Of a stretch of DNA of 64,000 nt, positions 14,251 through 50,100 are shown in pieces. The stretch lies in contig DASUCV010000004.1 in the NCBI GenBank assembly GCA_036275915.1, forward strand, positions 788,204-852,203. Direction: 5' to 3'. Numbering within the stretch: the stretch's first letter is position 1; each line of letters begins with the position of its first letter. The notes under the pieces are model-generated. The model worked only from the letters and a program-made list of their open reading frames with translations. It was not told the DNA's origin and searched no databases. This DNA is from Candidatus Polarisedimenticolaceae bacterium. Its GTDB lineage: Bacteria; Acidobacteriota; Polarisedimenticolia; Polarisedimenticolales; DASRJG01. The position numbers and the translations under genes were made by a program.

Positions 14251-15716
14251 CGCGCGCTCGCCTCCGCGATCGCGGACGTGAGGGCGCGCGTGCCCTGCGG
14301 TCCTCCGAGGAACTCCTCGACGACGGCGCGCGACGGTCGCTCGAGGCCGAAGCGGTAGAGCCGCTCGGAGAGCCGTGCGTAGAGCGCCGGCGACGGATCC
14401 TCGAACGCCCGCGCGCCGTAGAGCTCCCGCACCCGCGCGCGGAGCGCCGAGGTGATGACGGCCCCGAGCGCGTAGTTCGTCATGTAGCCGGGGGCGTCGA
14501 TGAGCTGGCCGCGCATCGCCCACCAGGGAAGCTCGGGATGCGGAGCGATTCCGAGGTACTCGGTGGTGATGGTCGTCCAGATCACGCTCGGGTGGACGGA
14601 GGAGGCCTGGACACGGATCTCGAAGAGCGCCCAGGCGACATCCATCATCGTCGCGGCGAGCGCCTCGCGGACGAGCGCGCGCCGGTCGACATCCACGCCG
14701 ATGTAGCGGCGCACGAACCCCGGCTCGTAAGCCTCGGTGCCGAGCATGTCGGCGAGCGCCTCCGTGAAGACGTCGTCGTCGGGCCAATCGTTGAACGCGG
14801 GCCGAGTCCGGATCGCGGCGATGTGCGCCGCGTGCCCCATCTCGTGCATCAGCTCGTAGACATTGCCGAGACCGCCTTCGGCGTACGAGGTCGAGATCAA
14901 GAACCGCCCATGCTGGAACGTATCTCCCGAAAGCCGTCCATGCCGTAGAAAATCGGTGAAGGCGACCGGATCCTTCCCGGGACGAGGCAAGAGGTCGAGC
15001 CTCACATGGAGCGCTTCGGGATCCGCGCCGAGGTCGCGGTAGTAGCGGAGCGCGGTCTCGATCGCGACATCGCGCGGAAGCCTCGGCGCCAGCGCGCGGC
15101 TCGCAGCGGTGTTCTCGTGGAACCAATCCCACGGCTCGACCGGCTTCGCCGAGGGAAGCTGGTCCCGCCACGCGTTGAGGATCGTCGTGAGGAGCGCTTC
15201 GAGCGCGCCGACCGACATCCCCCACGCCTGCGCCTTCTTGGTCACTTCGGCGGTGAAGGTCTCCCGTCGCGACGCGACGAGCGAGGGATACGGACCGCTG
15301 ATGGTCTCCCACATCGGAGCGAGGGCGAGGAACAACCGGCGGCGCCGCTCGGGATCGGGCTCGGACCCGAGCCGGCTCAGCACGGTCAGGCGGTCGAGCG
15401 TCTCGCCGTCGAACCGGATCGAGGACGCGGCCTTGCCGAACGCCTCGTACACGCGCTTCGCCTCCGCGTCGGGAGCTGAATCATCCGGGCCGATGGCGTG
15501 CCTCATCGCGTCGACGGCGCGGTCGTCCGCGCCCGGCGCGACGGTGCGAAGTGCTTCCTCGACCGACCGTACGGCCCGCGCTCGCGCGCGCTCGTGCGCC
15601 GGTGACGGCGTGCGCCGCTGCAGATCGTCGGCGTCGCGGAACGCGACGAATGCGCGCTCGGCCGCCGCGAGCTTCGGGGCCGAGGCGAGCGCCGCCGCGA
15701 GGAGAAGCGCCTCCAC
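14247..15716 (-). CDS. M3-family metallopeptidase (oligopeptidase-like)
   Basis: A 489-residue zinc peptidase of the M3 (thimet/oligoendopeptidase F) superfamily. The zinc site HEMGHAAH is at about residues 278-285, with the third ligand glutamate in FTEALADMLG about 28 residues later. The helical architecture and the final catalytic region with the Tyr-rich NYALGAVI segment also fit. The N-terminus MEALLLAAALASAPKLAAA may be a weak signal peptide or simply a helix. It is shorter than PepF (about 600 residues). It overlaps the downstream EEP hydrolase gene (ATGA), so both are coupled. Confidence 0.85.
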   Translation of the reverse strand: MEALLLAAALASAPKLAAAERAFVAFRDADDLQRRTPSPAHERARARAVRSVEEALRTVAPGADDRAVDAMRHAIGPDDSAPDAEAKRVYEAFGKAASSIRFDGETLDRLTVLSRLGSEPDPERRRRLFLALAPMWETISGPYPSLVASRRETFTAEVTKKAQAWGMSVGALEALLTTILNAWRDQLPSAKPVEPWDWFHENTAASRALAPRLPRDVAIETALRYYRDLGADPEALHVRLDLLPRPGKDPVAFTDFLRHGRLSGDTFQHGRFLISTSYAEGGLGNVYELMHEMGHAAHIAAIRTRPAFNDWPDDDVFTEALADMLGTEAYEPGFVRRYIGVDVDRRALVREALAATMMDVAWALFEIRVQASSVHPSVIWTTITTEYLGIAPHPELPWWAMRGQLIDAPGYMTNYALGAVITSALRARVRELYGARAFEDPSPALYARLSERLYRFGLERPSRAVVEEFLGGPQGTRALTSAIAEASAR

Positions 15717-15725
15717 GGAGGAATT

Positions 15726-16559
15726 CTACGTTCGGCGCTTGCGGGCGCTCAGGATCGGCACCTGCCAGACGGCGTACCCCTCGGGGTCGCGGATGCAGGC
15801 GATCATGTCGTCGAAGTACGCGAGCGCCTCCTCGCGCGTGAACGGCGTGTACTGGGCGATCGGATCGACGTAACCGTCGCGCCACGCTTCCCAGATGCCG
15901 GCGAACGTCTCGCGTGGCACCCGGATCGTGTCGACGACGACGTAGTGCATCCGGATCTCGTCGACCGGGAGCTTCTTCAGGTGATGGAAGCCGTCGCGCC
16001 CGATGTGCAGGTCGGTCCCCGTCGCGCGCCCGAACGCCGGCGGACCGATCTTCCAGAAGTGGTCGGCGTCGAGCTTCGTCGGCGCCATCTGGATCATGCC
16101 GTAATCCTCGACGAGGAGGTGAAGCCGTCCGCCCGGCTTCAGGACGCGGACCATCTCCGCCATCGCCTCGTGCGGGCGCGGAACCGCCTGGAGCATGTGG
16201 CGGCACACGACGAGGTCGAAGGTGCCCTCACCGAACGGGAGCGCGAACGCGTCCGCGGTGCGGAAGGTGACCCGCGCCCCGATCGAAGCGCAGCGATCGC
16301 GGGCGACGCGGAGGTGATCCTCGATGAGGTCGACGCCGGCGAGCGTCGCCTCCGGGTACATCTCGGCGAGGCGCCCCGTGATCTCCCCGGTGCCGCACCC
16401 GACGTCCAGAACGGCCAGCGGTCCGCTGAGGTCGTACGCCCGGAAGATCGCCGATTCCTGCGGCCAGATCGCTTCCGCCTGGTGCGCCAGGTTCCGGACC
16501 ATCGACTCGTCCGCCATCTGCTCGTACTGGGGGTTGTGCGGGTGTTTCGCCTCGCTCAT
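15726..16559 (-). CDS. class I SAM-dependent methyltransferase
   Basis: A 277-residue methyltransferase. Motif I LDVGCGTGEITGRLAE, motif II acidic end ATLAGVDLIEDHL and the post-motif block RVLKPGGRLHLLVEDYGMI are clear. The start at 16559 (MSEAKHPHN) is chosen over an ATG six codons upstream because the upstream residues MAGWAL overlap likely promoter sequence. The C-terminal 120 residues are helical with no known family motif. It lies upstream of the M3 peptidase and EEP genes on the same strand, 9 bp before the peptidase start, so it is probably the first gene of that operon. The substrate is unknown. Confidence 0.88.
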   Translation of the reverse strand: MSEAKHPHNPQYEQMADESMVRNLAHQAEAIWPQESAIFRAYDLSGPLAVLDVGCGTGEITGRLAEMYPEATLAGVDLIEDHLRVARDRCASIGARVTFRTADAFALPFGEGTFDLVVCRHMLQAVPRPHEAMAEMVRVLKPGGRLHLLVEDYGMIQMAPTKLDADHFWKIGPPAFGRATGTDLHIGRDGFHHLKKLPVDEIRMHYVVVDTIRVPRETFAGIWEAWRDGYVDPIAQYTPFTREEALAYFDDMIACIRDPEGYAVWQVPILSARKRRT

Positions 16560-16627
16560 GAGGGCCCATCCTGCCACGCCGGCGCCCGATTTGCCTCGTG
16601 CCGGGCGTCGAACCTAGGTTTTTGTGC

Positions 16628-36905: not shown

Positions 36906-37319
36906 ATGAACGCCCGCGCCTTCAGGTCTTTTCCGCGCTCGGCCGCGTGTCTGCCCGAGATCTTCGAATTCATGGAGGCGTTCTTCGAGACATCCGGCGT
37001 GGCCGAGCCGCACCGCAACCCGGCGGAGTTCGCCGTCGAGGAGCTCTTCACGAACCTCGTCAAGTACAGCCGCGGCGGGACGCAGGAGATCCGGATCGAG
37101 CTGGCGCGGGAGGCGGGCCGCCTTGTCGTCAGCCTTACCGATTTCGGCGTCGAGCCGTTCGACATCCGCACCGTCCCCGACGCGCAGGTCGATCTCTCGG
37201 TCGACCAGCGGAAACCAGGCGGGCTCGGCATCCACCTCGTGCGGCGGATGGTCGATCAGATCGATTACCGGTACGAAGACGGCTGCAGCACCACCACGTT
37301 CGTGAAGAGCCTGGAGTGA
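36906..37319 (+). CDS. RsbW/SpoIIAB-type anti-sigma or switch kinase
   Basis: A 137-residue GHKL-fold protein kinase of the RsbW family. The N box EFAVEELFTNLVKYS, the G1 region TDFGVEPFD and the G2 box GLGIHLVRRMVDQI are present, and no transmitter domain is attached, so it is a stand-alone switch kinase. Such kinases phosphorylate a STAS partner, whose gene starts five bases downstream (37325). The partner-switch could release or hold a third protein. This pair lies directly upstream of the ECF sigma factor, which makes a regulatory link likely but not proven. Confidence 0.9.
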   Translation: MNARAFRSFPRSAACLPEIFEFMEAFFETSGVAEPHRNPAEFAVEELFTNLVKYSRGGTQEIRIELAREAGRLVVSLTDFGVEPFDIRTVPDAQVDLSVDQRKPGGLGIHLVRRMVDQIDYRYEDGCSTTTFVKSLE

Positions 37320-37324
37320 GTCCC

Positions 37325-37624
37325 ATGCTCGAGATCAAGTTCGGACCCGAGGGCGAGGTGATCATGGCGGGGCGCTTCGATGCCTCGCAGGCCGAGATGG
37401 CCGAGACCTTCCTCTCCGGCGTCAAAGAGAGCCGGGTCGTCGACCTCAAGGACCTGAGCTATATCTCCAGCCTGGGGCTGGGGGTGCTACTCTCGGCCCA
37501 GAAACGCCTGATGGGAGCGGGTCACAGTCTTCGTCTGGTCAACGTCCGGGGACATGTACGGGAGATCTTTCATTTTTCCGGCTTCGAGCAGGTTTTTGAG
37601 ATCGACCCGGCTCCCCCGGCGTGA
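37325..37624 (+). CDS. STAS-domain anti-sigma antagonist
   Basis: A 99-residue STAS protein of the SpoIIAA/RsbV type. The typical core is DLKDLSYISSLGLGVLLSAQK, where Ser48/Ser49 are the expected phosphorylation site, followed by LRLVNVRGHVREIFHFSGF. In its unphosphorylated form it should bind the RsbW-like kinase encoded five bases upstream. The stop codon lies 36 bp before the ECF sigma ATG. The protein is a whole single domain. The start ATG follows a GAGTGAGTC sequence that gives a weak ribosome site, so coupling to the kinase gene is likely. Confidence 0.92.
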   Translation: MLEIKFGPEGEVIMAGRFDASQAEMAETFLSGVKESRVVDLKDLSYISSLGLGVLLSAQKRLMGAGHSLRLVNVRGHVREIFHFSGFEQVFEIDPAPPA

Positions 37625-37660
37625 TCGGCTGGCCAACTTCCCCGGAACCGGCGTGCGCTT

Positions 37661-38206
37661 ATGACGAATGAGAACGACGACAACGCGCTGGTTCAGGGGT
37701 GCTTGGCCGGAGACGAACACGCCTTCGAGATCCTCGTCGTCCGCTATCAAGGGCCGATCTACAACGCCGTCCTCCGGATGGTGCGCGACCGGGACGACGC
37801 CTCGGATCTCACGCAGAACGCTTTTCTCAAAGCGTATCAACAGCTCTCCAAGTTCGATCCTCATTACAAGTTCTTCAGCTGGCTCTACCGAATCGCGATC
37901 AACGAGAGCCTGAATTTCGTCAAGCGGAGCGGGCGGCAGGAGCCGCTCGACGGTGACGGCGTGGCGGAGTCGGCCGATCCCGAGCGGTCCGTGGTCTCGG
38001 CCGAGATCGGCCGTCACGTTCAGGGCGCTCTCATGAAGGTCTCTGCGGACTACCGCGCCGTCCTCGTGCTCCGGCACTTCCACGACTGCTCGTACGAGGA
38101 CATGGCCGCGATCCTCGGCATCCCCGAGAAAACAGTAAAGTCGAGACTTTTCAGCGCCCGACGTCAGCTCAAGGAGCTACTCGAGGCCGAGGGCATGCTG
38201 CCTTGA
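37661..38206 (+). CDS. ECF-type RNA polymerase sigma factor
   Basis: A 181-residue sigma-70-family ECF factor. The region 2 block (DDASDLTQNAFLKAYQQLSKFD, in two parts, then FSWLYRIAINESLNF) and the region 4 HTH YEDMAAILGIPEKTVKSRLF are complete; there is no region 3. Its stop is not followed by an anti-sigma gene as is usual; a truncated copy of this same gene precedes the anti-sigma gene at 39854. It probably transcribes the two repeat-protein genes, whose upstream motif AACCTTTT...GTAnGTTA is ECF-like. Autoregulation is not visible. Confidence 0.94.
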   Translation: MTNENDDNALVQGCLAGDEHAFEILVVRYQGPIYNAVLRMVRDRDDASDLTQNAFLKAYQQLSKFDPHYKFFSWLYRIAINESLNFVKRSGRQEPLDGDGVAESADPERSVVSAEIGRHVQGALMKVSADYRAVLVLRHFHDCSYEDMAAILGIPEKTVKSRLFSARRQLKELLEAEGMLP

Positions 38207-38285
38207 CGCTGTCGGCATACCCCAAACGCGGGAATACTGCCTCGACGCGCTAAGTCCCCTTGCCGGGTTGAATCCGGGCGAGTTT

Positions 38286-38335
38286 GTTGGCGGGCCAAAA
38301 AAAAGCCAACCTTTTCAAATTTCACTGGTACGTTA
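38286..38335 (+). promoter_or_regulatory. ECF-like promoter before repeat gene 1
   Basis: AACCTTTT at 38308-38315 and GTACGTTA at 38328-38335 are 12 bases apart. A stem GTTGGC (38286-38291) / GCCAAC (38305-38310) lies just upstream and overlaps the first box. The same two boxes with exactly the same gap occur before repeat gene 2 at 40653-40680. AAC near -35 fits many ECF promoters. The ATG is at 38380. Confidence 0.65.
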
Positions 38336-38379
38336 CATGTAACGGGGGGCCGAAACGCCCGACAACCTGGAGGCGGAAA

Positions 38380-39459
38380 ATGGCTAGCAGCACAACAGGC
38401 AGGGGGAGCGCGAAATATCTATTCGTCGGAGGCGGCGTGCTCGTCGCGATCGTCTTGGTGGTGGCTTTCAAGAGCTACCCGACCAAGCCCGCAGACGCCA
38501 CCGGCACGATTCAAGGCGCCTCGCGCCACCACGAGACGCAGATCACTCCGGATGACGTCAAGGTCGCGCCCGACGCTCTGGCCGTGTGGATTCAGAGCGA
38601 CACGTTCGACAAGATCGTCAAGGATCCCGTGGCCCGTAAGCTGTTCACCAGTGGCGCGGTGAACGAACTCTTCGTCAACGATGCCGCGCGGCACATCGCA
38701 CTCGCAGACGGTGCGACGAAGGTGATCGTCGGTGACGCGGGCGCGAAGTGGATGGTCCCGGTCGACTCCGGCAAGCTCATCACCGGCGAGGCCGGCCCGA
38801 AGTACATGGTCCCCGTCGACTCCGGAAGACTCATCACCGGCGAGGCCGGCGCGAAGCACATGGTCCCGGTCGATTCCGGCAAGCTCATCACCGGCGACGC
38901 CGGCGCGAAGTGGATGGTGCCGGTCGACTCCGGCAAGCTCATCACCGGCGAGGCCGGCCCGAAGTACATGGTCCCGGTCGACTCCCGCACACTGATCACC
39001 GGTGACGCGGGCTCCAAGTACATGGTCCCCGTCGACTCCGGCAAGCTCATCACCGGTGAGGCCGGCGCGAAGTACATGGTCCCCGTCGACTCCGGCAAGC
39101 TCATCACCGGTGAGGCGCAGAAGCTGCAGAAGGACGGCACCAACCTCATGGTGGCCGGCGATGCGCAGAAGATGGTCCCGATCGATTCGGGTCGGTTGAT
39201 CACGGGTGACGCCGGTGCGAAGTACATGGTCCCGATCGACTCGGGCAAGCTGATCACAGGCGAGGCCCACAACAAGTTCATCACCGTGGGTGACGCTCGC
39301 AAGCTCTTCGCGACCGACGCCGTGAAGCAGGCTCTCGAGAACCCGGCCATCAAGCTCGCGCTCCAGGACGCCGCGTTTTGCGAGGCTCTCCGGGACGCCG
39401 CGACCCTGACTGCACTACAGACCGAGGCGAGGAAGCTCTCGCCCCAGAACGGCGACTGA
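38380..39459 (+). CDS. membrane-anchored protein with 18-residue GDAG/GEAG tandem repeats (repeat protein 1)
   Basis: A 359-residue protein. After a short basic N-terminus, residues about 10-27 form one membrane helix (YLFVGGGVLVAIVLVVAF), so the rest lies outside the cytosol. A conserved head (ADATGTIQGASRHHETQITP, DTFDKIVKDPVARKLF) is followed by about nine copies of an 18-residue unit such as GEAGAKYMVPVDSGKLIT (nucleotides 38731-39258, 54-bp period), with one shorter pair. The tail NKFITVGDARKLF, DAVKQALENPAI and one Cys in AFCEAL is shared with repeat protein 2. The ATG at 38380 follows GGAGGCGG. Family not recognised. Confidence 0.9.
   Translation: MASSTTGRGSAKYLFVGGGVLVAIVLVVAFKSYPTKPADATGTIQGASRHHETQITPDDVKVAPDALAVWIQSDTFDKIVKDPVARKLFTSGAVNELFVNDAARHIALADGATKVIVGDAGAKWMVPVDSGKLITGEAGPKYMVPVDSGRLITGEAGAKHMVPVDSGKLITGDAGAKWMVPVDSGKLITGEAGPKYMVPVDSRTLITGDAGSKYMVPVDSGKLITGEAGAKYMVPVDSGKLITGEAQKLQKDGTNLMVAGDAQKMVPIDSGRLITGDAGAKYMVPIDSGKLITGEAHNKFITVGDARKLFATDAVKQALENPAIKLALQDAAFCEALRDAATLTALQTEARKLSPQNGD
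38731..39258 (+). repeat. 54-bp tandem repeats inside repeat protein 1
   Basis: Seven complete 54-bp units start at 38731, 38785, 38839, 38893, 38947, 39001 and 39055, then two 48-base units (39109 and 39157) and one more 54-bp unit at 39205. Each 54-bp unit codes G-D/E-A-G-x-K-x-M-V-P-V/I-D-S-x-x-L-I-T. Units differ mainly at the residue after K (W, Y, H) and at G-K/G-R/R-T, so the array still undergoes exchange or slippage. Confidence 0.93.
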
Positions 39460-39487
39460 AGCCCGTAAGACATCCGCTTCTGTGAAC

Positions 39488-39527
39488 GAAGGGGGTGCGC
39501 CAACACGGCGCACCCCCTTCGTCTTTT
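39488..39527 (+). terminator. Rho-independent terminator after repeat gene 1
   Basis: The stem GAAGGGGGTGCGCC at 39488-39501 pairs perfectly with GGCGCACCCCCTTC (39507-39520) across the five-base loop AACAC, and is followed by GTCTTTT. It lies 28 bp behind the stop of repeat gene 1, so its transcript ends before the decayed sigma copy and the anti-sigma gene. Confidence 0.92.
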
Positions 39528-39618
39528 CATGAGGCGGATCGCCTGCAGGGTCGGCCCATCTGCCCCCTCGGCAGTTTTCTTCGTTTCGCGCCAGAATTCG
39601 AGCTTATTCGGCCCAGAT

Positions 39619-39857
39619 GTGATCATCCGGCCAACTTCCCGGCCCTCGGCGTGTACTTGGAACGTGAGACGATAACGCGCTGCTTCAGGGGTGCACGAGT
39701 GGAGACGGAAACGATTTCGAGATCCTGCTCATCGAAGCCGCCGCGGCGCGGACGACCCGCCGACAAGACGCCACCTGCGAGGACAGCAAAGCTCCGACTT
39801 TCCAGCGCCCGACGCCAGCTCATCGAGCTGCTCGCGGCCCAGGGTAGGTTGCCATGA
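39619..39857 (+). pseudogene. decayed, internally deleted copy of the ECF sigma gene
   Basis: This stretch matches the functional sigma gene region 37621-38206 at both ends. The 5' part shares GGCCAACTTCCC, and the frame reading ALLQGCTSGDGNDFEILLIE corresponds to ALVQGCLAGDEHAFEILVVR of the intact protein. The 3' part codes LRLSSARRQLIELLAAQGRLP, against SRLFSARRQLKELLEAEGMLP. The middle, with most of regions 2 and 4, is missing (about 340 bases), the first ATG is lost and the two parts are in different frames. The end overlaps the anti-sigma ATG as ATGA, the original operon junction. It cannot make a sigma factor. Confidence 0.9.
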
Positions 39858-40624
39858 CGAACCCTACGGACCTCCACGAGCTGATTCATGCTGACATCGA
39901 CGGAACCGCCAGTCCGGCCGACCGCGCCCGGCTGCGCGAGTTGCTCGACGCGAACCCCGAAGCCCGGGCGGAGCACGAGCGCCTCGCCGCCCTGAAAGAT
40001 GTGCTCGCGCGCGTCGCCCCCGAGGCGCCGCCGGAGCCTCTGCGCGCGCGGATCATGCGCTCCGTACGAGCGGAAAAGGCCCGTCGCTCCATGGGATTCT
40101 GGCAACGCATCGCGCCGCCGTGGCTCACCAGCCGCACCGTTCTGCCGGTCGCCTACGCGGCGGCGGCAGGTGCCATGATCGGGATCGTCGGGTTCCACAT
40201 CATCACCGGGCAGGGCTCATTCGACGCCGTCGAGCGGGATGCCGCGGCGACGATCGGCTCGAAGCCGGCCGGGACCGAGGCGGGCCGGGTCGTCTTGAGC
40301 GGCGCCGGAATCACCGGCACGGCCACTCTCCGGAAGCTCGAGACGACGTTCGCCCTGGACGTCGATCTTCCCGCCGGTTCGGGGCTCGACGTCCGGGTTG
40401 CCTACGACCCGGCGGTGGTGAAATTCGTCGGTTGGACGGACCGGAGTGGCGAGGTCGGCCCGCTCGAGGCCGCGAACGGCACCGTGCGTTGGCACAGTAC
40501 CTCGTCGCAGCGAGTGACTCTCTTCTTGACCCCCCAAACCGGCGAATCGTCCCAGGTGACAGTCAGCTTCAATACCGGCGCCGTCAGCGGCGGCGGTTCC
40601 GTCGGGATCCCAGGGCGCGATTGA
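39854..40624 (+). CDS. membrane-spanning anti-sigma factor
   Basis: A 256-residue anti-sigma factor. The N-terminal cytosolic part HELIHADIDGTASPADRARL resembles the anti-sigma domain but lacks the Zn-binding HxxxCxxC, so it would be a non-zinc type. Residues about 95-117 form one membrane helix (LPVAYAAAAGAMIGIVGFHII). The outside part (about 125-256) is a beta-rich domain (LETTFALDVDLPAGSGLDV, RVTLFLTPQTGESSQVTVSF). Its ATG overlaps the stop of the decayed sigma copy (ATGA), so its former partner sigma has been lost here. It most likely holds the intact sigma encoded at 37661. Confidence 0.85.
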   Translation: MTNPTDLHELIHADIDGTASPADRARLRELLDANPEARAEHERLAALKDVLARVAPEAPPEPLRARIMRSVRAEKARRSMGFWQRIAPPWLTSRTVLPVAYAAAAGAMIGIVGFHIITGQGSFDAVERDAAATIGSKPAGTEAGRVVLSGAGITGTATLRKLETTFALDVDLPAGSGLDVRVAYDPAVVKFVGWTDRSGEVGPLEAANGTVRWHSTSSQRVTLFLTPQTGESSQVTVSFNTGAVSGGGSVGIPGRD

Positions 40625-40631
40625 GAGCGCG

Positions 40632-40680
40632 GGTGGGTGGAAGAAAACCACCAACCTTTTGAGAACTGGTTGGTAAGTTA
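40632..40680 (+). promoter_or_regulatory. ECF-like promoter before repeat gene 2
   Basis: AACCTTTT at 40653-40660 and GTAAGTTA at 40673-40680 are 12 bases apart, exactly as before repeat gene 1. A GGTGG (from 40635) and CCACC (40649-40653) pair with an A-rich loop stands just before, like the stem at 38286. The ATG of repeat gene 2 is at 40724. Confidence 0.65.
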
Positions 40681-40723
40681 GGTGGTAACGGGCCGTAAAG
40701 GTCCGACAACACGGAGGCGGAAC

Positions 40724-41575
40724 ATGGCTAGCAGCAGAGGAAATCGGGGGACCGCGAAATTCTTCTTCATCGGCGGCGGCGTGGTCGCGGCGATCGCGTT
40801 GGTGGTGTTCTTCCAGAACTACCCGCCCAAGCCCGCGGACGCCACCGGCACGATCCAGGGTGCCAGCCGCTATCACGAAACCCAGATCACTCCGAGCGAT
40901 GTCAAGGTGGCGCCGGACGCTCTCTCGACCTGGATCCAGAGCGACACCTTCGACAAGATCGTCAAGGATCCCGACGCCCGTAAGCTCTTCGCGAGCGGCG
41001 CGGTGAGCCAGCTCTTCACCAACGACGCCGTGCGGCTGATCGCGCTCGACGCCACCAAGGTGAGCGCGGGCGATGCGCAGAAGCTCCAGAAGGACGGCAC
41101 GAACCTCATGGTGGCCGGCGACTCGACCGGCGCTGCGATCAAGGGATTCAGCAGCCGCAACATCGACAACGGCGCGCAGCACGTGATGAGCGTCGGCGAC
41201 GCGCGGAAGCTGATCGAAAGCGGCGACGCGCAGAGCCAGAGAATGGTCATCGGCGACGCGCGGAGCCAGAGGCTGGTTGCCGGCGATGCCCAGAAGATGG
41301 TCGTTGGCGATGCCCAGAAGATGGTCGTTGGCGACGCCCAGAAGATGGTCGTTGGCGACGCGGCGAACAAGTTCATCACCGTTGGCGATGCTCACAAGCT
41401 CTTCCAGAGCGACGCGGTCCGGCAGGCCCTCGAGAACCCGGCCATCCAGCAGGCGCTCAAGGACTCGGCGTTCTGCCAGGCCCTTCAGAACGCGGCGACG
41501 ATGAACGCCCTCCAGAACGAGGCTCAGAAGGTCTCGCCGCTGAGGGACGACGCCACCAAGCAGAACGGCAACTAA
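40724..41575 (+). CDS. membrane-anchored protein with GDAQKMVV repeats (repeat protein 2)
   Basis: A 283-residue paralog of repeat protein 1. It has the same basic N-terminus and membrane helix (FFIGGGVVAAIALVVFF), the same head (ADATGTIQGASRYHETQITP, DTFDKIVKDPDARKLF) and the same tail (NKFITVGDAHKLF, DAVRQALENPAI, AFCQAL). The middle differs: it has scattered GDA-units and three identical 8-residue copies GDAQKMVV (24-bp period, 41282-41353) where protein 1 has the 18-residue array. Both share QKLQKDGTNLMVAGD. The start ATG follows GGAGGCGG. Likely extracytoplasmic; function unknown. Confidence 0.88.
   Translation: MASSRGNRGTAKFFFIGGGVVAAIALVVFFQNYPPKPADATGTIQGASRYHETQITPSDVKVAPDALSTWIQSDTFDKIVKDPDARKLFASGAVSQLFTNDAVRLIALDATKVSAGDAQKLQKDGTNLMVAGDSTGAAIKGFSSRNIDNGAQHVMSVGDARKLIESGDAQSQRMVIGDARSQRLVAGDAQKMVVGDAQKMVVGDAQKMVVGDAANKFITVGDAHKLFQSDAVRQALENPAIQQALKDSAFCQALQNAATMNALQNEAQKVSPLRDDATKQNGN
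41282..41353 (+). repeat. three 24-bp tandem repeats in repeat protein 2
   Basis: Three copies of a 24-bp unit coding GDAQKMVV start at 41282, 41306 and 41330; the first two are identical, the third differs by one silent base. They are flanked by looser GDA-units. This short array sits at the place where the paralog carries the 54-bp array. Confidence 0.92.
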
Positions 41576-41606
41576 GACTTTAAGAGTTACAATCCGCTTC
41601 CGTGAC

Positions 41607-41648
41607 AACGGGGGCGCGTCCGGTAGGGCGCGCCCCCGTTGTCGTCTT
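41607..41648 (+). terminator. GC-rich hairpin terminator after repeat gene 2
   Basis: AACGGGGGCGCG at 41607-41618 pairs perfectly with CGCGCCCCCGTT at 41629-41640 over a ten-base loop. The tail GTCGTCTTGT is only moderately T-rich, so termination may be partial. It lies 31 bp behind the repeat gene stop and just before the metallopeptidase-like gene. Confidence 0.75.
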
Positions 41649-41663
41649 GTGGGGGGCGGATCG

Positions 41664-44600
41664 ATGGGTGACCGCGGCACGCGGCTCTTGGCCGCCGGGC
41701 TACTGACTCTCGGCTGCGCGGTCACCGGAGCGTTCGCTCAGTTTTCCTCCGTCGAGACCGAAGAGCTTCGCCTTCTCTACCTCGATCCGTTCCAGACCTA
41801 CCTCGTCCCCCACGTCGGCGCCTGCTTCACGAACTCGCTCGCGTTCGACCACAAGCTCTTCAACTTCACCCCTTCGGAAAAGGTCACCATCCTCCTCAAC
41901 GATTTCTCCGACATGGGGAATGCGAGCGCCTCGTCGGTCCCGCGCGATTTCATCTCGATGCAGGTCTCGCCGCTCTCCGCGGCGTACGAGACGGTGACGA
42001 CGAACGAGAGATTCAACTGGCTCTTCAACCACGAGCTGATCCACGTCACGACGACCGACATGGCGGCGAAGCCCGACCGTCGTGCGCGAAAGTTCTTCGG
42101 GGGGAAGGTCCTCCCCAACAACGAGGACCCGGAATCGATCGGCTATTTCTACCTGACGACACCCCGCGTGTCGGCTCCCGGCTGGTACCTCGAGGGAATC
42201 GCCGTCTTCATCGAGACCTGGATGGCCGGCGGCCAGGGACGGGCGCAGGGCCCCTACGACGAGATGGTCTTCCGCTCGAAGGTCCGAGACGGTGCGCGCA
42301 TCTACGACCCGCTCGGCCTCGCCGCCGAGGGGACCAAGATCGACTTCCAGGTCGACGTCAACAACTACCTCTACGGCACCCGGTTCATGACCTACCTCGG
42401 CTACCACTACTCGCCCGAGAAGGTCGTCGAGTGGGTGAGCCGCCACGACGGCAGCCGCGCCTGGTACGCGACGAACTTCAAAGCCGTCTTCGGGATCCCG
42501 CTCGCGCAGGCGTGGTCGGAGTGGATCGCCTTCGAGCACGAGTTCCAGAACGCGAACCTCGCGGCGATCCGGAAGTACCCGACGACACCCACGAAAGATG
42601 TCTCACCGCGGGCGCTCGGCTCGGTGTCGCGCCAGTTCGTCGATCCCGACAAGAAGGTCATGTACGTCGGGTTCAACGCGCCGGGGCTCGTCGCCCACAT
42701 CGGCTCGATCTCGCTCGAGACAGGCGCCCTGAAACCGATCGTCGAGGTGAAGGGTCCGGTCCTCTTCACCGTCACCTCGCTCGCGTGGGACCCCGATCGC
42801 AAGATGCTCTACTACTCGACCGACAACACCGAGTTCCGCGACGTCGTCCAGCTCGACCCGGCGACCGGGAAGACGAAGCGCCTCTTGAAGGACGTCCGGA
42901 TCGGCGAGCTGGTCTTCGACCGCACCGACCGGTCGCTGTGGGGGGTCCGTCACTTCAACGGGATCTGCACGTTGGCTCGGATGCCCTACCCTTATAAGGA
43001 GTGGCAGCAGGTCGTCTCGTTCGCCTACGGCCAGGTCCCCTACAACCTCGACATCTCCCCCGACGGCACGCTCCTCTCCGCGTCCCTCGGCGGGATCGAC
43101 GGCCGGCACGCGGTCCACGTCATGAAGATCGAGGATCTTCTGCAAGGTCGGCTCGAGGACGTTGCCAGGTTCGACTTCGACACGTTCATCCCCGAGAACT
43201 TCATCTTCTCGGAGGACGGCAAGTTCCTCTACGGCAGCTCGTACTACACCGGCGTCTCGAACATCTTCCGCTACGAGCTGGCGACGAAGAAGCTCGACGC
43301 GCTCTCGAACGCGGAGACCGGCTTCTTCCACCCGCTCCTGCGATCCGACGGCTCGATGTTCGTGTTCCGTTACACAGGAGACGGTTTCGTCGCGTCGACG
43401 ATCGACCCGAAGCCGATCGAGGACGTCAGCGCGATCACGTTCCTCGGGACGAAGCTCGTCGAGACCCACCCCATCGTCAAGGAGTGGAAGGTCGGCTCGC
43501 CGGCGCGGATTCCGTTCGACGATCTCGTCGTCGCGCGCGAGCCCTACGCGAAGTGGCGCGACATCGGCACCGAGTCGTTCTATCCGATCCTCCAGGGCTA
43601 CAAGGATTCCGCCGCTGCCGGCATGCGATTCAACTTCACCGATCCGATCGGGATCAACCGGTTCACGCTGTGGGCGAGCTACTCGCCGGACCAGGCGCTG
43701 GCGACCGACGAGCGCCTCCACCTGCAGCTCGAGTACAAGCGCTACGACTGGAAGGTCGACGCGAAGTACAACGCCGGTGATTTCTACGACCTCTTCGGGC
43801 CGACGAAGGTGAGCCGCAAAGGGTACTCGCTGCGCGCCGCGTGGAACCACATGCTCTACCGCGACAACCCGCGGCAGTTCCAGGTCACGGTCGACGGCGC
43901 CTACTACGGAAACCTCGACACGTTGCCCTACTACCAGAACGTCGCTTCACCGGCGTCCACGCTCGCCACCCTGTTCGCGAAGTTCCAGTTCGACAACGCG
44001 CGCGCGAGCCTCGGGCGCGTCGACGAGGAGAAGGGTGAGCACGCCTCGCTCTACGTCTCCGGCACTTACACGCCGAACCCGAACTGCACCCCGAACATCG
44101 CCCAGCCTCTCAACAACTGCAACACCACGACCGCGCCGGCGGGCGGCTTCTACCCGCAGGTGCTCGGCACCTTCGACGTCGGGTTCCAGCTCCCGCTCAA
44201 GCACTCGTCGATCTGGCTCCGGAGCGCGGCCGGCGGCGGCACCGGCGACCCGACGAGCCCGTTCGCGAACTTCTTCTTCGGCGCCTTCGGGAACAACTGG
44301 GTCGACAACGGAAACATCAAGCGTTATCGCGAGTTCTTCTCGTTCCCCGGCCTCGCGATCAACGAGATCGGCGGCCGCACCTTCGCGAAGTCGATGCTGG
44401 AGTGGAACCTCCCGCCGATCCGCTTCCGCCGCTTCGGCACGCCGGGGTTCTACGCGTCGTGGATCCGCACCGCCCTCTTCGCGGGCGGCCTGGCGACCAA
44501 CTTCGACCACCAGAACGGGACGTTCTACGATATCGGGCCGAGCGGTAACTGGGAGCCGTTCACGGCCAAGATCTCGAACAACGTCGCCGACGCCGGCGTG

Positions 44601-44729
44601 CAGATGGACATGCGGTTCACCTATCTCTCGCGCCTCGACATGACCCTCTCCTTCGGCTACGCCGCCGCCTTCGAGGACGGCCACGCGCCGCGCCACGAGG
44701 CGATGGTCTCGCTCAAGGTCATGCCGTGA
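41664..44729 (+). CDS. large exported gluzincin-like metallopeptidase with beta-propeller and barrel-like C-terminus
   Basis: A 1021-residue exported protein with a signal peptide ending GAFAQ (residue 26). An N-terminal metallopeptidase-like region has HELIH at 123-127 and a likely third ligand Glu177 in GWYLEGIAVF. Residues about 320-620 look like a beta-propeller (DPDKKVMYVGFN, DPDRKMLYYSTD, DISPDGTLLSASLGG). Residues about 650-1021 alternate strands and end ALKVMP-like as in outer-membrane barrels (SRLDMTLSFGYAAAF). The start at 41664 is chosen for GGGGGCGGA upstream. It overlaps prsW (GTGA). Substrate unknown. Confidence 0.82.
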   Translation: MGDRGTRLLAAGLLTLGCAVTGAFAQFSSVETEELRLLYLDPFQTYLVPHVGACFTNSLAFDHKLFNFTPSEKVTILLNDFSDMGNASASSVPRDFISMQVSPLSAAYETVTTNERFNWLFNHELIHVTTTDMAAKPDRRARKFFGGKVLPNNEDPESIGYFYLTTPRVSAPGWYLEGIAVFIETWMAGGQGRAQGPYDEMVFRSKVRDGARIYDPLGLAAEGTKIDFQVDVNNYLYGTRFMTYLGYHYSPEKVVEWVSRHDGSRAWYATNFKAVFGIPLAQAWSEWIAFEHEFQNANLAAIRKYPTTPTKDVSPRALGSVSRQFVDPDKKVMYVGFNAPGLVAHIGSISLETGALKPIVEVKGPVLFTVTSLAWDPDRKMLYYSTDNTEFRDVVQLDPATGKTKRLLKDVRIGELVFDRTDRSLWGVRHFNGICTLARMPYPYKEWQQVVSFAYGQVPYNLDISPDGTLLSASLGGIDGRHAVHVMKIEDLLQGRLEDVARFDFDTFIPENFIFSEDGKFLYGSSYYTGVSNIFRYELATKKLDALSNAETGFFHPLLRSDGSMFVFRYTGDGFVASTIDPKPIEDVSAITFLGTKLVETHPIVKEWKVGSPARIPFDDLVVAREPYAKWRDIGTESFYPILQGYKDSAAAGMRFNFTDPIGINRFTLWASYSPDQALATDERLHLQLEYKRYDWKVDAKYNAGDFYDLFGPTKVSRKGYSLRAAWNHMLYRDNPRQFQVTVDGAYYGNLDTLPYYQNVASPASTLATLFAKFQFDNARASLGRVDEEKGEHASLYVSGTYTPNPNCTPNIAQPLNNCNTTTAPAGGFYPQVLGTFDVGFQLPLKHSSIWLRSAAGGGTGDPTSPFANFFFGAFGNNWVDNGNIKRYREFFSFPGLAINEIGGRTFAKSMLEWNLPPIRFRRFGTPGFYASWIRTALFAGGLATNFDHQNGTFYDIGPSGNWEPFTAKISNNVADAGVQMDMRFTYLSRLDMTLSFGYAAAFEDGHAPRHEAMVSLKVMP

Positions 44730-45733
44730 CCGTCGCGGTCGGGCTCCTGCCCGTCCTGTTCTTCCTCGGCGCGCTCATCTACCTCGACAGCTACAAGCTC
44801 GTCCGGAAGCGGTTCGTCGCCGGCGCGCTCGTCGGCGGCTGCGTTCTCGCCGTCGTCTGCTGGGGCATCAACACGGCGCTCGGCGGGGCGATTCCCGTGG
44901 GGTACGAGGGCTACTCGCGCTTCATCGCCCCGATCGTCGAGGAATCCGTCAAGGCGCTCCTCATCATCGGGTTCGCGCGCGCGAACCGGATCGGGTTCCT
45001 CGTCGACGCGGCGATCTACGGGTTCGCGATCGGCACCGGTTTCGCGCTGGTCGAGAACGTCGTCTACTGGTCGACCCTCACCGATGCTTCGTGGAGCCTC
45101 TGGCTCGTACGCGGGTTCGGGACCGCGATCATGCACGGCGGCTGTACCGCGATCGTCGGCATCGTGGGGAAGGCGCTCACCGAGCGCGGACGCTGGCCGA
45201 CCGCCGGTGCGTGGGCCGCCGCGATCGCGGTCGCCATCCTCATCCACTCGTTCTTCAACAGCTTCTTCCTGGCGCCGGTGACGCAGGCGGCGGTCATCGT
45301 GCTCTTCCTCCCGCCGCTCGCCTACATGATCTTCCGTCGCAGCGAGCGCTCCCTCGAGCAGTGGCTGAACGTCGGCTTCGACGCCGACACGGAGCTCCTC
45401 GAGCTGGTGCTCTCCGGCCACGTGTCGGGCACGCCGGTCGGCAACTACCTCGGCGAGCTGCGCTCGCGCTTCCCGGGCGAGGTCCTCGTCGACATGCTCT
45501 GCTACCTCCGCCTCCACCTCGAGCTGTCGCTCCGGGCGAAGGGCCTCCTCATGATGCGCGAGGCCGGGTTCCCGGTCGTCCTCGACGGCAACGACAAGGC
45601 GAAGCTCGAGGAGCTGGACTTCCTCGAGCGCAGCATCGGCACCGTCGGCAAGCTCACGATGAAGCCGTTCCTGCGGACGACCTCGCGCGATCTGTGGGAG
45701 ATCTACATGATGAGGGAAGAAGCGAAGCGGTAA
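44726..45733 (+). CDS. prsW: PrsW-family intramembrane metalloprotease
   Basis: A 335-residue polytopic membrane protease of the PrsW/CPBP superfamily. The metal-site motifs are IVEESVKALLII (EExxK), IMHGGCTAIVG (HG) and ILIHSFFNSFFL (HxxxN). In Bacillus subtilis PrsW makes the first cut in the anti-sigma factor RsiW. The C-terminal 120 residues are a cytosolic helical extension that is longer than in PrsW itself. The GTG start overlaps the stop of the large exported protein. Its place in the sigma/anti-sigma region makes the nearby anti-sigma (39854) its natural candidate substrate, which is an inference. Confidence 0.88.
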   Translation: MTVAVGLLPVLFFLGALIYLDSYKLVRKRFVAGALVGGCVLAVVCWGINTALGGAIPVGYEGYSRFIAPIVEESVKALLIIGFARANRIGFLVDAAIYGFAIGTGFALVENVVYWSTLTDASWSLWLVRGFGTAIMHGGCTAIVGIVGKALTERGRWPTAGAWAAAIAVAILIHSFFNSFFLAPVTQAAVIVLFLPPLAYMIFRRSERSLEQWLNVGFDADTELLELVLSGHVSGTPVGNYLGELRSRFPGEVLVDMLCYLRLHLELSLRAKGLLMMREAGFPVVLDGNDKAKLEELDFLERSIGTVGKLTMKPFLRTTSRDLWEIYMMREEAKR

Positions 45734-45775: not shown

Positions 45776-46432
45776 ATGAATCGTTGGCTCGGAGTCGCCG
45801 CCCTCGGCGCGATCGCCCTCGGCGTCGCGACGCAAGCAGAGGCGCAGTCGAAGAAGGAAGTCGAAGGCTACATCGCCGGCGGCTACGTCCTCTCGGAGGG
45901 CGGGACCGGCGACTTCACCAACGACGGCTGGAACATCTCGGGTGGCGCGATCTTCCGTCCCGCGCCCGAGCTCCCGCTCGCGCTCCGCTTCGACCTCGGT
46001 TTCAACTGGTTCGACGCGAACCGTCACGCGATCGACGTCGCGCAGTCGAACGGACTCCTCGTCAACGACGGCAACATGAGCCTCGGCACGCTGACCGCAG
46101 AGCTCATGTACGAGTTCGGCGGTCATGGCGGCGTCGGCGGCTACGTCGCCGCGGGATTCGGCGGCATGCGCCGCTACGGCAACTTGACGACGACCGTTCC
46201 CCTCTCGGGAATCTGGTGCGACCCGTGGACCGGCTTTTGTTACCCCGGATACGGTGCGGGCCAAGCCATCGTCGCCGACGACACGGTGACGAAGTTCACG
46301 TACAGCGCTGGAGCGGGCGTCACGTTCCCGGTCGGGCACGGCACGCTCTACGTCGAAGCGCGCTACCACTGGATGGAGGCGAGCCATCCGTCCACCCAGA
46401 TGCTGCCGATCCTCGTCGGCTATCGCTTCTGA
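45776..46432 (+). CDS. exported outer-membrane beta-barrel protein
   Basis: A 218-residue exported protein with signal peptide MNRWLGVAALGAIALGVATQAEAQ. The mature part alternates strands with Gly and aromatic residues (GGYVLSEGGTG, LRFDLGFNWFDAN, TLYVEARYHWMEA) and ends LPILVGYRF with the terminal Phe of OmpA/OprF-like barrels. It fits an eight-strand barrel. GAGGAG stands before the ATG. A clear terminator follows directly. It reads away from prsW and is probably separate from the sigma locus. Confidence 0.82.
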   Translation: MNRWLGVAALGAIALGVATQAEAQSKKEVEGYIAGGYVLSEGGTGDFTNDGWNISGGAIFRPAPELPLALRFDLGFNWFDANRHAIDVAQSNGLLVNDGNMSLGTLTAELMYEFGGHGGVGGYVAAGFGGMRRYGNLTTTVPLSGIWCDPWTGFCYPGYGAGQAIVADDTVTKFTYSAGAGVTFPVGHGTLYVEARYHWMEASHPSTQMLPILVGYRF

Positions 46433-48659: not shown

Positions 48660-49604
48660 TCACGGGGCGGCGACGGAGACCCCGGGAGAATTCGGGCAGC
48701 ACCGCGACGGAGCGGGTTTCCACGAACGACGATACCGATCTACCGCGGCGGAGGCGCCGGCGGCCGAACGGTATCCGAGCCATCGAGCGAGCGAAGTCAA
48801 ACGAATGTCCACGCCGGCGCGCGCCTCATGGATGAAGGCGCCGCGTGCGAGCGCGGCCTTGGGACCGCCTTCGCGCGGGGAGCGGATCGCCGCGACGGGG
48901 ACACTGAACCTCGAAGCGACCGCGTGCGCCAGAGCAGGCTTGGGCCAGGGAGCGTGCGTGGGGATGGTCGAGTGCGCCGGCGCGGGACGCCGAGGCGCGA
49001 GCACGGGCTCGACCCTCCAGGCGGTGTTCTCGAGGCCGGACCCGGCTGCGAAGAGCGCGTCCCACCGCGGGCGTCCGTTCGCGTCGCGTGTCCCGCGATC
49101 GAGCCCCGCTTCGACGTAGGCCCGATACCGGTGACGGGCACCGATCGTGCCGAACCGGCCGAGCACCGCTTGAGTGACGAGCCATCGCGGCGCCGCCGGA
49201 TCGCCGAGGTACGAGCGAAGGCTCGAGAACGGCCAGTCGGCGGCGTGCGCGGCGACGCCCGCCTCGACCGGGTTGAGATGAATGTAGCGGCTGACCTCCA
49301 TGAGATGGCGCCCGAAGGTGATGCCGATGATCTTGATCGCGGCGTCCGTGGGCGGAGCGATCCTGCGCGCCGCCTCGTACGCGGGACGGAGCGCAGCGCG
49401 TACGAGGATGTGGAAGTGCCGGGGCAGGACACAGTACGCATGCACGTCGACCGGGAGGCGACTGCAAGCCCCGGCCAGGCACACGACCGCCTCCGCCCCG
49501 CCGCGCCCGGGATCGGTGCGGCCCATGACGTGCAGCCAGCCGGCGTCAGCCGGCGCTCGCAGCGTGCGGTGCCTCGAGATGACTCCGAGCATGCCGGCCA
49601 TCAT
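48660..49604 (-). CDS. RAYT-like Y1 (HUH) transposase, divergent
   Basis: About 314 residues from the ATG at 49604. The HUH motif is PRHFHILVRA (H63, H65); the catalytic Tyr is in SRYIHLNPVEAGV (Y107), and the C-terminus has a DNA-binding helix LARWLGYRSAAG, all as in REP-associated tyrosine transposases. The segment that normally lies between the HUH and Tyr (FNRR-G-GHLWQGRYKS) is missing, so the gap is only about 40 residues, and activity is doubtful. RAYTs can move palindromic REP repeats. It is the only transposase-like gene in the window and a candidate source of the GGGGACAG palindromes. Confidence 0.8.
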   Translation of the reverse strand: MMAGMLGVISRHRTLRAPADAGWLHVMGRTDPGRGGAEAVVCLAGACSRLPVDVHAYCVLPRHFHILVRAALRPAYEAARRIAPPTDAAIKIIGITFGRHLMEVSRYIHLNPVEAGVAAHAADWPFSSLRSYLGDPAAPRWLVTQAVLGRFGTIGARHRYRAYVEAGLDRGTRDANGRPRWDALFAAGSGLENTAWRVEPVLAPRRPAPAHSTIPTHAPWPKPALAHAVASRFSVPVAAIRSPREGGPKAALARGAFIHEARAGVDIRLTSLARWLGYRSAAGASAAVDRYRRSWKPAPSRCCPNSPGVSVAAP

Positions 49605-49746
49605 CGAGGGAAATGGGATGCCGTGCCGCTCGCGGAGGCCCCGGGACGGTTGCCTCTGCGCAACGCTTCTTGGCTGAGCGCGCGGTTCTTCCTCAGGAGC
49701 GCGCGCTCGCCGCGAAGGAAAGTCGAGAACGGGAAGCCCGGAAGGG

Positions 49747-50100
49747 CTAGGGGGTGACACCGATGACGGGATACCGGAAGTACGTCCCGTCGTAAGCCTT
49801 GATCGCTCCGACGATCGGTAACGCGATCGCCGCGAGTCCGAGGATGGCCCAGAAGGCGACGACCGCGGGAATCAAGATCACGGTGAACCACAGGACGGCC
49901 GTGCACAGGACGAGGCCGAACACGACGAGGTTCAGGAAGAGCGCCTGCTTCGCGATCGACGCGATGACCGGTGTATCGCTCTTGACGACCCAGATGAGAA
50001 GAGGAACGAGCGCGCCGCCGAACGGCACGAGGTAACCGGAAAGCCCGGAGAGATGGGTCAGCGCCGCGAGCGTGCGGTGCTCGGGCGGGATCGTGGTCAT
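49747..50100 (-). CDS. DUF4870 family membrane protein
   Basis: A 117-residue membrane protein matching DUF4870 (also called Tic20-like). HLSGLSGYLVPFGGALVPLLIWVVK is the family start, and three hydrophobic helices follow (about 17-36, 58-80, 85-107). The start overlaps the stop of the LPXTG-type gene by four bases, so it is the third gene of the sortase operon. The role is unknown. Confidence 0.9.
   Translation of the reverse strand: MTTIPPEHRTLAALTHLSGLSGYLVPFGGALVPLLIWVVKSDTPVIASIAKQALFLNLVVFGLVLCTAVLWFTVILIPAVVAFWAILGLAAIALPIVGAIKAYDGTYFRYPVIGVTP

Follow-up and report, generated by a model that had tools for sequence, protein, structure and literature searches.

Proteolytic release and partner switching have been treated as alternative routes to sigma factor activation (PMC4598750). 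The SigW-RsiW-PrsW-RasP system of Bacillus subtilis (PMC3498285, PMC4598750) combines an ECF sigma factor, a membrane anti-sigma factor and a PrsW protease carrying EExxK and the other catalytic motifs, but it has neither a repeat protein nor an outer-membrane peptidase nor a partner switch. The Btr system of Bordetella (BtrU/BtrW/BtrV, with the ECF sigma BtrS and the anti-sigma BtrA; PMC7498569, PMC8256260) gathers a SpoIIE phosphatase, a serine kinase, a STAS protein, an ECF sigma and an anti-ECF factor at one locus. BtrA is, however, a secreted protein rather than a membrane anti-sigma, the system has no PrsW and no equivalent of the Rep and Big proteins described below, and its switch reportedly affects secretion and works at a post-transcriptional level (PMC7498569, PMC8256260). 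A third comparison is the FecI-FecR-FecA type of cell-surface signalling, which presents a similar layout of outer-membrane protein, inner-membrane anti-sigma and ECF sigma (PMC5411451, PMC9249621).

We analyzed a 64,000-nucleotide stretch of DNA (the window; G000:C4:788204-852203) in which nine elements lie in a cluster on the forward strand (Table 1). The sequence-only reading had listed a kinase, a STAS protein, a sigma factor, two repeat proteins, a decayed sigma, an anti-sigma, a large HELIH protein and PrsW, all on one strand, and every one of them was recovered. Its outline holds, but the SpoIIE phosphatase, the duplication, the fusions and the probable beta-barrel escaped it, and its HELIH protein, although present, is better described as a protein with peptidase, propeller and predicted beta-barrel parts. 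We favor, with moderate confidence, the interpretation that this locus encodes a conserved module for signalling across the envelope, centred on an autoregulated ECF sigma factor and provided with a second, cytoplasmic input. Relative to the B. subtilis system, PrsW is linked to the sigma operon and carries an extension of about 130 residues, and the anti-sigma lacks the zinc-binding HxxxCxxC motif. No Pfam match to a FecR domain or a TonB-dependent receptor was found in the window's anti-sigma or in Big, and the predicted peptidase-propeller-barrel organization of Big is unlike that of a FecA-type TonB-dependent receptor. Within the open-access literature (subscription journals were outside the scope of the search), we found no described system with this gene set, in agreement with the earlier reading, which knew of none.

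Table 1. Features of the cluster, in coordinates of the window.
Feature	Coordinates	Strand	Evidence
RsbW-type serine kinase (HATPase_c_2), 137 aa	36906..37319	+	Pfam HATPase_c_2 4.5e-21; N-box EExxxN and GGLG box kept in relatives
STAS protein, 99 aa	37325..37624	+	TIGR00377 2e-15; STAS_2 3.3e-11; phosphorylation-position Ser invariant across 10 relatives
Promoter-like element of the sigma gene, CCAACTTCC...GTGCGCTT, degenerate -10, abuts ATG	37633..37660	+	
ECF sigma factor, 181 aa	37661..38206	+	Sigma70_r2 3.9e-16; r4_2 8.8e-15
Promoter-like element of Rep1, CCAACCTTTT, GTA at +22	38306..38335	+	
Rep1, 359 aa: N-terminal TM, conserved juxtamembrane motif, 9/18-residue repeats	38380..39459	+	
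Terminator-like hairpin 3' of Rep1	39480..39525	+	Direct sequence reading
Remnant (relic) of a second sigma gene, reduced to its 5' and 3' ends; consensus promoter retained at 39631-39658	39619..39859	+	
Anti-sigma factor, 256 aa: ASD, TM (residues 96-114), periplasmic beta domain	39854..40624	+	NF052375 1.2e-11; alignment with relatives
Promoter-like element of Rep2, CCAACCTTTT, GTA at +22	40651..40680	+	
Rep2, 283 aa	40724..41575	+	Identity to Rep1 66% overall, 76% over the N-terminal part
Terminator-like hairpin 3' of Rep2	41610..41643	+	Direct sequence reading
Big, 1021 aa: signal-peptide-like N-terminus, HExxH...E metallopeptidase, TolB-like propeller, predicted C-terminal beta-barrel	41664..44729	+	
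PrsW intramembrane protease with C-terminal extension, 335 aa	44726..45733	+	PF13367 7.9e-21

Whether the neighboring genes are kept together elsewhere was the check proposed with the sequence-only reading, and the answer is decisive: about 20 genomes of the phylum, as well as two gammaproteobacterial MAGs (L040 and L041), have the same families clustered. All eight families, including a SpoIIE-type phosphatase, are found at six loci (L040, L041, L048, L049, L050 and L053). The gammaproteobacterial loci came from an exact-peptide contig scan, and their number (only two) reflects the limits of that method. Among 396 genomes of the phylum, Big was detected in 24 (E<=1e-20; the match in G067 is a fragment of only 81 residues), the PrsW subfamily in 24 and the N-terminal profile of Rep in 19. 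PrsW of this subfamily is present in all 19 genomes with Rep and in 23 of the 24 with Big; the corresponding hypergeometric values (5e-35 for Big and PrsW, with 23 shared genomes, and 4e-28 for Rep and PrsW) overstate independence because the genomes are related. In several of the genomes lacking Rep, Big lies at a contig edge. Gene order is permuted in L048 and L049 (kinase-STAS-Rep-Big-PrsW-sigma-anti-sigma) and PrsW is divergent in L052 and L054; the families stay linked despite rearrangement, which argues for function rather than inherited order. ECF sigmas, HATPases, STAS proteins and SpoIIE phosphatases are each common families, and one could imagine an ordinary local clustering of signalling genes with no joint function. 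This explanation is extremely improbable, as it is already contradicted by the conservation data: content and order recur across the families of the phylum and in the two gammaproteobacterial MAGs, Rep, Big and PrsW occur almost exclusively together, and the promoter motif is conserved. The gene set is a real module, conserved as a unit. In the Big tree, a fully supported group of eight sequences, the window's among them, contains both gammaproteobacterial ones, suggesting that the module was transferred between phyla; the PrsW and sigma trees are weakly resolved and add only the pairing of the two gammaproteobacterial sequences. Counting against our main interpretation, no sigma gene lies near by in L012 and L055 and no RsbW/STAS genes in L042 and L043, which indicates that the inputs are separable.

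The sigma factor of the window consists of regions 2 and 4 only (Sigma70_r2 at residues 25-92 and r4_2 at 121-170), as expected of an ECF sigma. Its orthologues in the same gene setting are 40-56% identical to it; a sigma-like ORF in L051 was not counted among them, being 27% identical and on a very long branch. The anti-sigma has the class I organization, with an N-terminal anti-sigma domain (ASD) followed by a TM, and its match to NF052375 lies under the curated cut-off. The zinc motif HxxxCxxC is absent from this protein and its cluster relatives and was seen only in two fusions (L101 and L103). A blastn comparison of the two halves of the locus revealed a tandem duplication of sigma, anti-sigma and Rep, in which Rep1 and Rep2, promoters included, share 77% identity, followed by reciprocal loss: copy 1 lost the anti-sigma and copy 2 the middle of the sigma gene. 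The earlier call of a decayed sigma is borne out, since the relic retains both ends of the gene, one at 39619-39726 (74% identity to 37621-37734) and the other at 39783-39859 (79% identity to 38132-38208). The overlapping start of the anti-sigma at the end of the relic reads ATGA, versus TTGA in copy 1. The second Rep and the relic are thus products of local duplication specific to the window's genome, and the notion that two repeat proteins belong to the design of the system has to be given up, as one Rep is the norm.

We identified a motif of fixed spacing, C[CG]AAC[CT]-N16-GTA, just upstream of sigma in L010, L040, L041, L042, L048, L049, L050, L052 and L054, and upstream of Rep in L009, L048, L049, L050, L053 and, twice, the window, where it is also found at the relic. 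The sigma promoter of the window itself has a poor -10, with GCG for GTA, which counts against our main interpretation. Thirty matches occur in the 430 kb of loci examined; about 16 fall in upstream stretches against 0.04 expected (background about 14), figures that are descriptive, the stretches having been chosen after the motif was seen. Because the motif precedes both sigma and Rep genes, the sigma most likely controls itself and Rep, in support of the earlier proposal that it transcribes the repeat genes. The strict motif has ten matches in the window's genome, three of them at the locus (one match for the reversed-pattern control). The seven others all fall within predicted reading frames and resemble background; a wide regulon was therefore rejected, and the regulon looks small and local. 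The GTA stands 6 nt from the sigma ATG in L010, L040, L041, L050, L052 and L054 (6-10 nt overall). With the -10-like element abutting the start codon, the sigma transcript may be leaderless.

Rep appears to be a previously unnamed family of membrane-anchored repeat proteins, with an N-terminal TM followed by an AGTIG-x-A-x-RY...Q...DV motif and a series of repeats. Sequence periodicity is strongest at 9 or 18 residues in 16 of 19 Rep proteins and at 7 in L050 and L053; L012 has none. No convincing Pfam or NCBIfam family was found for Rep1 or Rep2, and the AF2 model of Rep2, which consists of short helices at low confidence, gave no match in a fold search. Like the STI1/DP repeats of HOP and ubiquilin (Pfam PF17830, PF23195), Rep would form tandem short helices of about 9 residues, but it is membrane-anchored and bacterial and its model is of low confidence. 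Whole-protein STI1/DP scores pass the curated cut-off in four Rep proteins and a single stretch passes in only one, while the best PDB match, to yeast STI1, has an E-value of 0.37. Since repetition inflates whole-protein scores and almost no single stretch passes, we treat this as a resemblance and not as homology.

Six loci (L010, L042, L043, L046, L052 and L054) carry, next to a sigma gene, one open frame in which an anti-sigma-type N-terminus is joined to Rep (ASD-TM-Rep), and further fusions with a sigma gene lie away from Big in L101, L102 and L103. Such repeated in-frame fusions suggest that Rep most plausibly serves as the periplasmic portion of an anti-sigma system, which lends support to the earlier view that the repeat proteins sense. 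Two of the fusions, in L101 (973-2517, minus strand) and L103 (434-1831, minus strand), have anti-sigma domains of the zinc type, and the ECF sigmas beside them are more distant (30-33% identity to the window's). A candidate fusion in G001 was not counted as firm: its open frame may contain two genes, as a sigma-type promoter separates the anti-sigma remnant from Rep. We also observed a G-[TAS]-[IMLV] motif like that of Rep, 12-17 residues past the TM, in seven of eight separate anti-sigmas. The window's anti-sigma has AATI instead, which counts against our main interpretation, and about 27% of anti-sigma segments and 12% of Rep segments show the motif in shuffled controls, which gives single cases little weight. 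Its consistent position in both families nevertheless makes a shared protease or partner site plausible.

The fast divergence of the Rep repeats and the range in length (about 200 to 980 residues) would also be expected if Rep, Big and PrsW formed an envelope processing or export system that matures Rep as a surface polymer, with sigma and anti-sigma merely its regulator and Rep a product rather than a sensor. A role of PrsW as a processing or export peptidase has been proposed for polymorphic toxins (PMC3482391), the Rep of the window has its own sigma-type promoter and terminator-like hairpin, and Rep, Big and PrsW stand together without an adjacent sigma in L055 and L012. We nevertheless consider this alternative rather unlikely, given that nine or more loci carry fusions of Rep with an anti-sigma domain, including three that do not lie with Big, and that the genomes holding L012 (G059) and L027 (G256) encode a sigma and an ASD-Rep fusion elsewhere.

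The catalytic residues of both proteases are conserved. In Big, H123, E124 and H127 together with E177 are invariant in 17 sequences, the HExxH plus downstream Glu arrangement of gluzincins. Among the Foldseek matches listed for its confident AF2 model (pLDDT 82), TolB is closest for the propeller (2.5e-9), Pfam TolB-like matches being weak; the model has about 16 long C-terminal strands at 624-1019, and no barrel is among the matches listed. With these features, Big would be an exported metallopeptidase, probably anchored in the outer membrane. In PrsW, E72, E73, K76, E110, N111, H137, H174 and N178 are invariant and supply the EExxK and downstream E/H motifs of the family; the C-terminal extension is conserved, and the protein is longer than the 210-position NCBIfam PrsW model. 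The strict co-occurrence of PrsW with the module and its intact catalytic motifs suggest that it would cleave the anti-sigma. PrsW of Bacillus acts at site 1, which counts against our main interpretation, and in the open-access literature we found no precedent for a PrsW that targets an ECF anti-sigma in a Gram-negative bacterium and is encoded together with an outer-membrane peptidase.

The phosphorylation-site Ser of the STAS protein and the N-box of the kinase are kept throughout the aligned relatives, as expected of partner-switch proteins. A SpoIIE/PP2C phosphatase is absent from the window's cluster, but at least 12 relatives have one beside the module, with a GAF- or FHA-GAF-SpoIIE architecture. 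In the window's own genome, the unlinked L065 shares 45% identity with the phosphatase of L041 across 412 residues, well above the other nine of the ten SpoIIE loci examined there. By sequence, kinase, STAS protein and L065 are a complete partner-switch set. In L052, one protein (15014-16585, minus strand) combines RsbW-type kinase, cyclic-nucleotide-binding and SpoIIE phosphatase domains, and thus both arms of a partner switch in a single chain.

RsbW kinases classically bind group 3 sigmas and not ECF sigmas, which again counts against our main interpretation. The switch might be an unrelated neighbor or act on another sigma, leaving a pathway of sigma, anti-sigma, Rep, Big and PrsW only. 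RsbW and STAS genes are, besides their absence near L042 and L043, divergent or rearranged in L046, L051 and L052, and the likely phosphatase of the window's genome is unlinked. However, at least 14 genomes have a kinase or STAS gene next to the module and at least 12 have SpoIIE there, in several arrangements, and G067 retains phosphatase, kinase and STAS with PrsW alone, which makes an unrelated switch improbable. In G067 these genes stand with a TM-beta protein in the absence of sigma and Big; by eye, this protein resembles the outer domain of the anti-sigma, and the arrangement hints that the switch may act through PrsW. In L115 (8751-9429, minus strand), the gene between STAS and PrsW encodes a TM protein that has no anti-sigma domain and whose beta domain resembles the outer part of the module's anti-sigma.

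From these observations we infer how the proteins of the trans-envelope module touch one another, which of them are cleaved, where the signal comes from and in which direction regulation runs. The anti-sigma would hold the sigma at the inner membrane, and the envelope side would consist of membrane-anchored, periplasmic Rep (a protein of its own in the window, joined to the anti-sigma domain in several relatives) and of Big, probably anchored in the outer membrane. On an envelope signal read by Rep and Big, PrsW would cleave the anti-sigma, and probably Rep too, near their common juxtamembrane G-[TAS]-[IMLV] motif, whether or not Big cuts first, and the sigma would thereby be freed. The freed sigma would transcribe its own gene and Rep from CCAACTTTT-N13-GTA promoters; Rep, as both input component and product, would provide feedback. 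SpoIIE phosphatase, RsbW kinase and STAS protein would form a second, cytoplasmic gate on the same output, whose target may be the sigma or the cytoplasmic extension of PrsW. In a more specific and rather doubtful version, proteolysis and partner switching converge, with kinase and STAS acting on the PrsW extension and not on the sigma, and an STI1-like periplasmic Rep family bridges the outer-membrane metallopeptidase to the anti-sigma.

A conserved module with parts of both release routes, an outer-membrane peptidase and an unnamed repeat family would offer a Gram-negative setting in which to study how PrsW is gated and what role this protease has outside Firmicutes. It would let one ask how an ECF sigma takes envelope and cytoplasmic input at once, and its small gene set and promoter motif make it directly testable. 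Inside the window, the start of PrsW overlaps the end of Big, and an outer-membrane beta-barrel protein (45776-46432; PF13505, 2.4e-10) is encoded directly 3' of PrsW, without a conserved counterpart beside the module in relatives. Finally, an ORF at 48660-49760 on the minus strand of the window resembles, by eye, a REP-associated (Y1-type) transposase, and a similar ORF opens L116 (G067).
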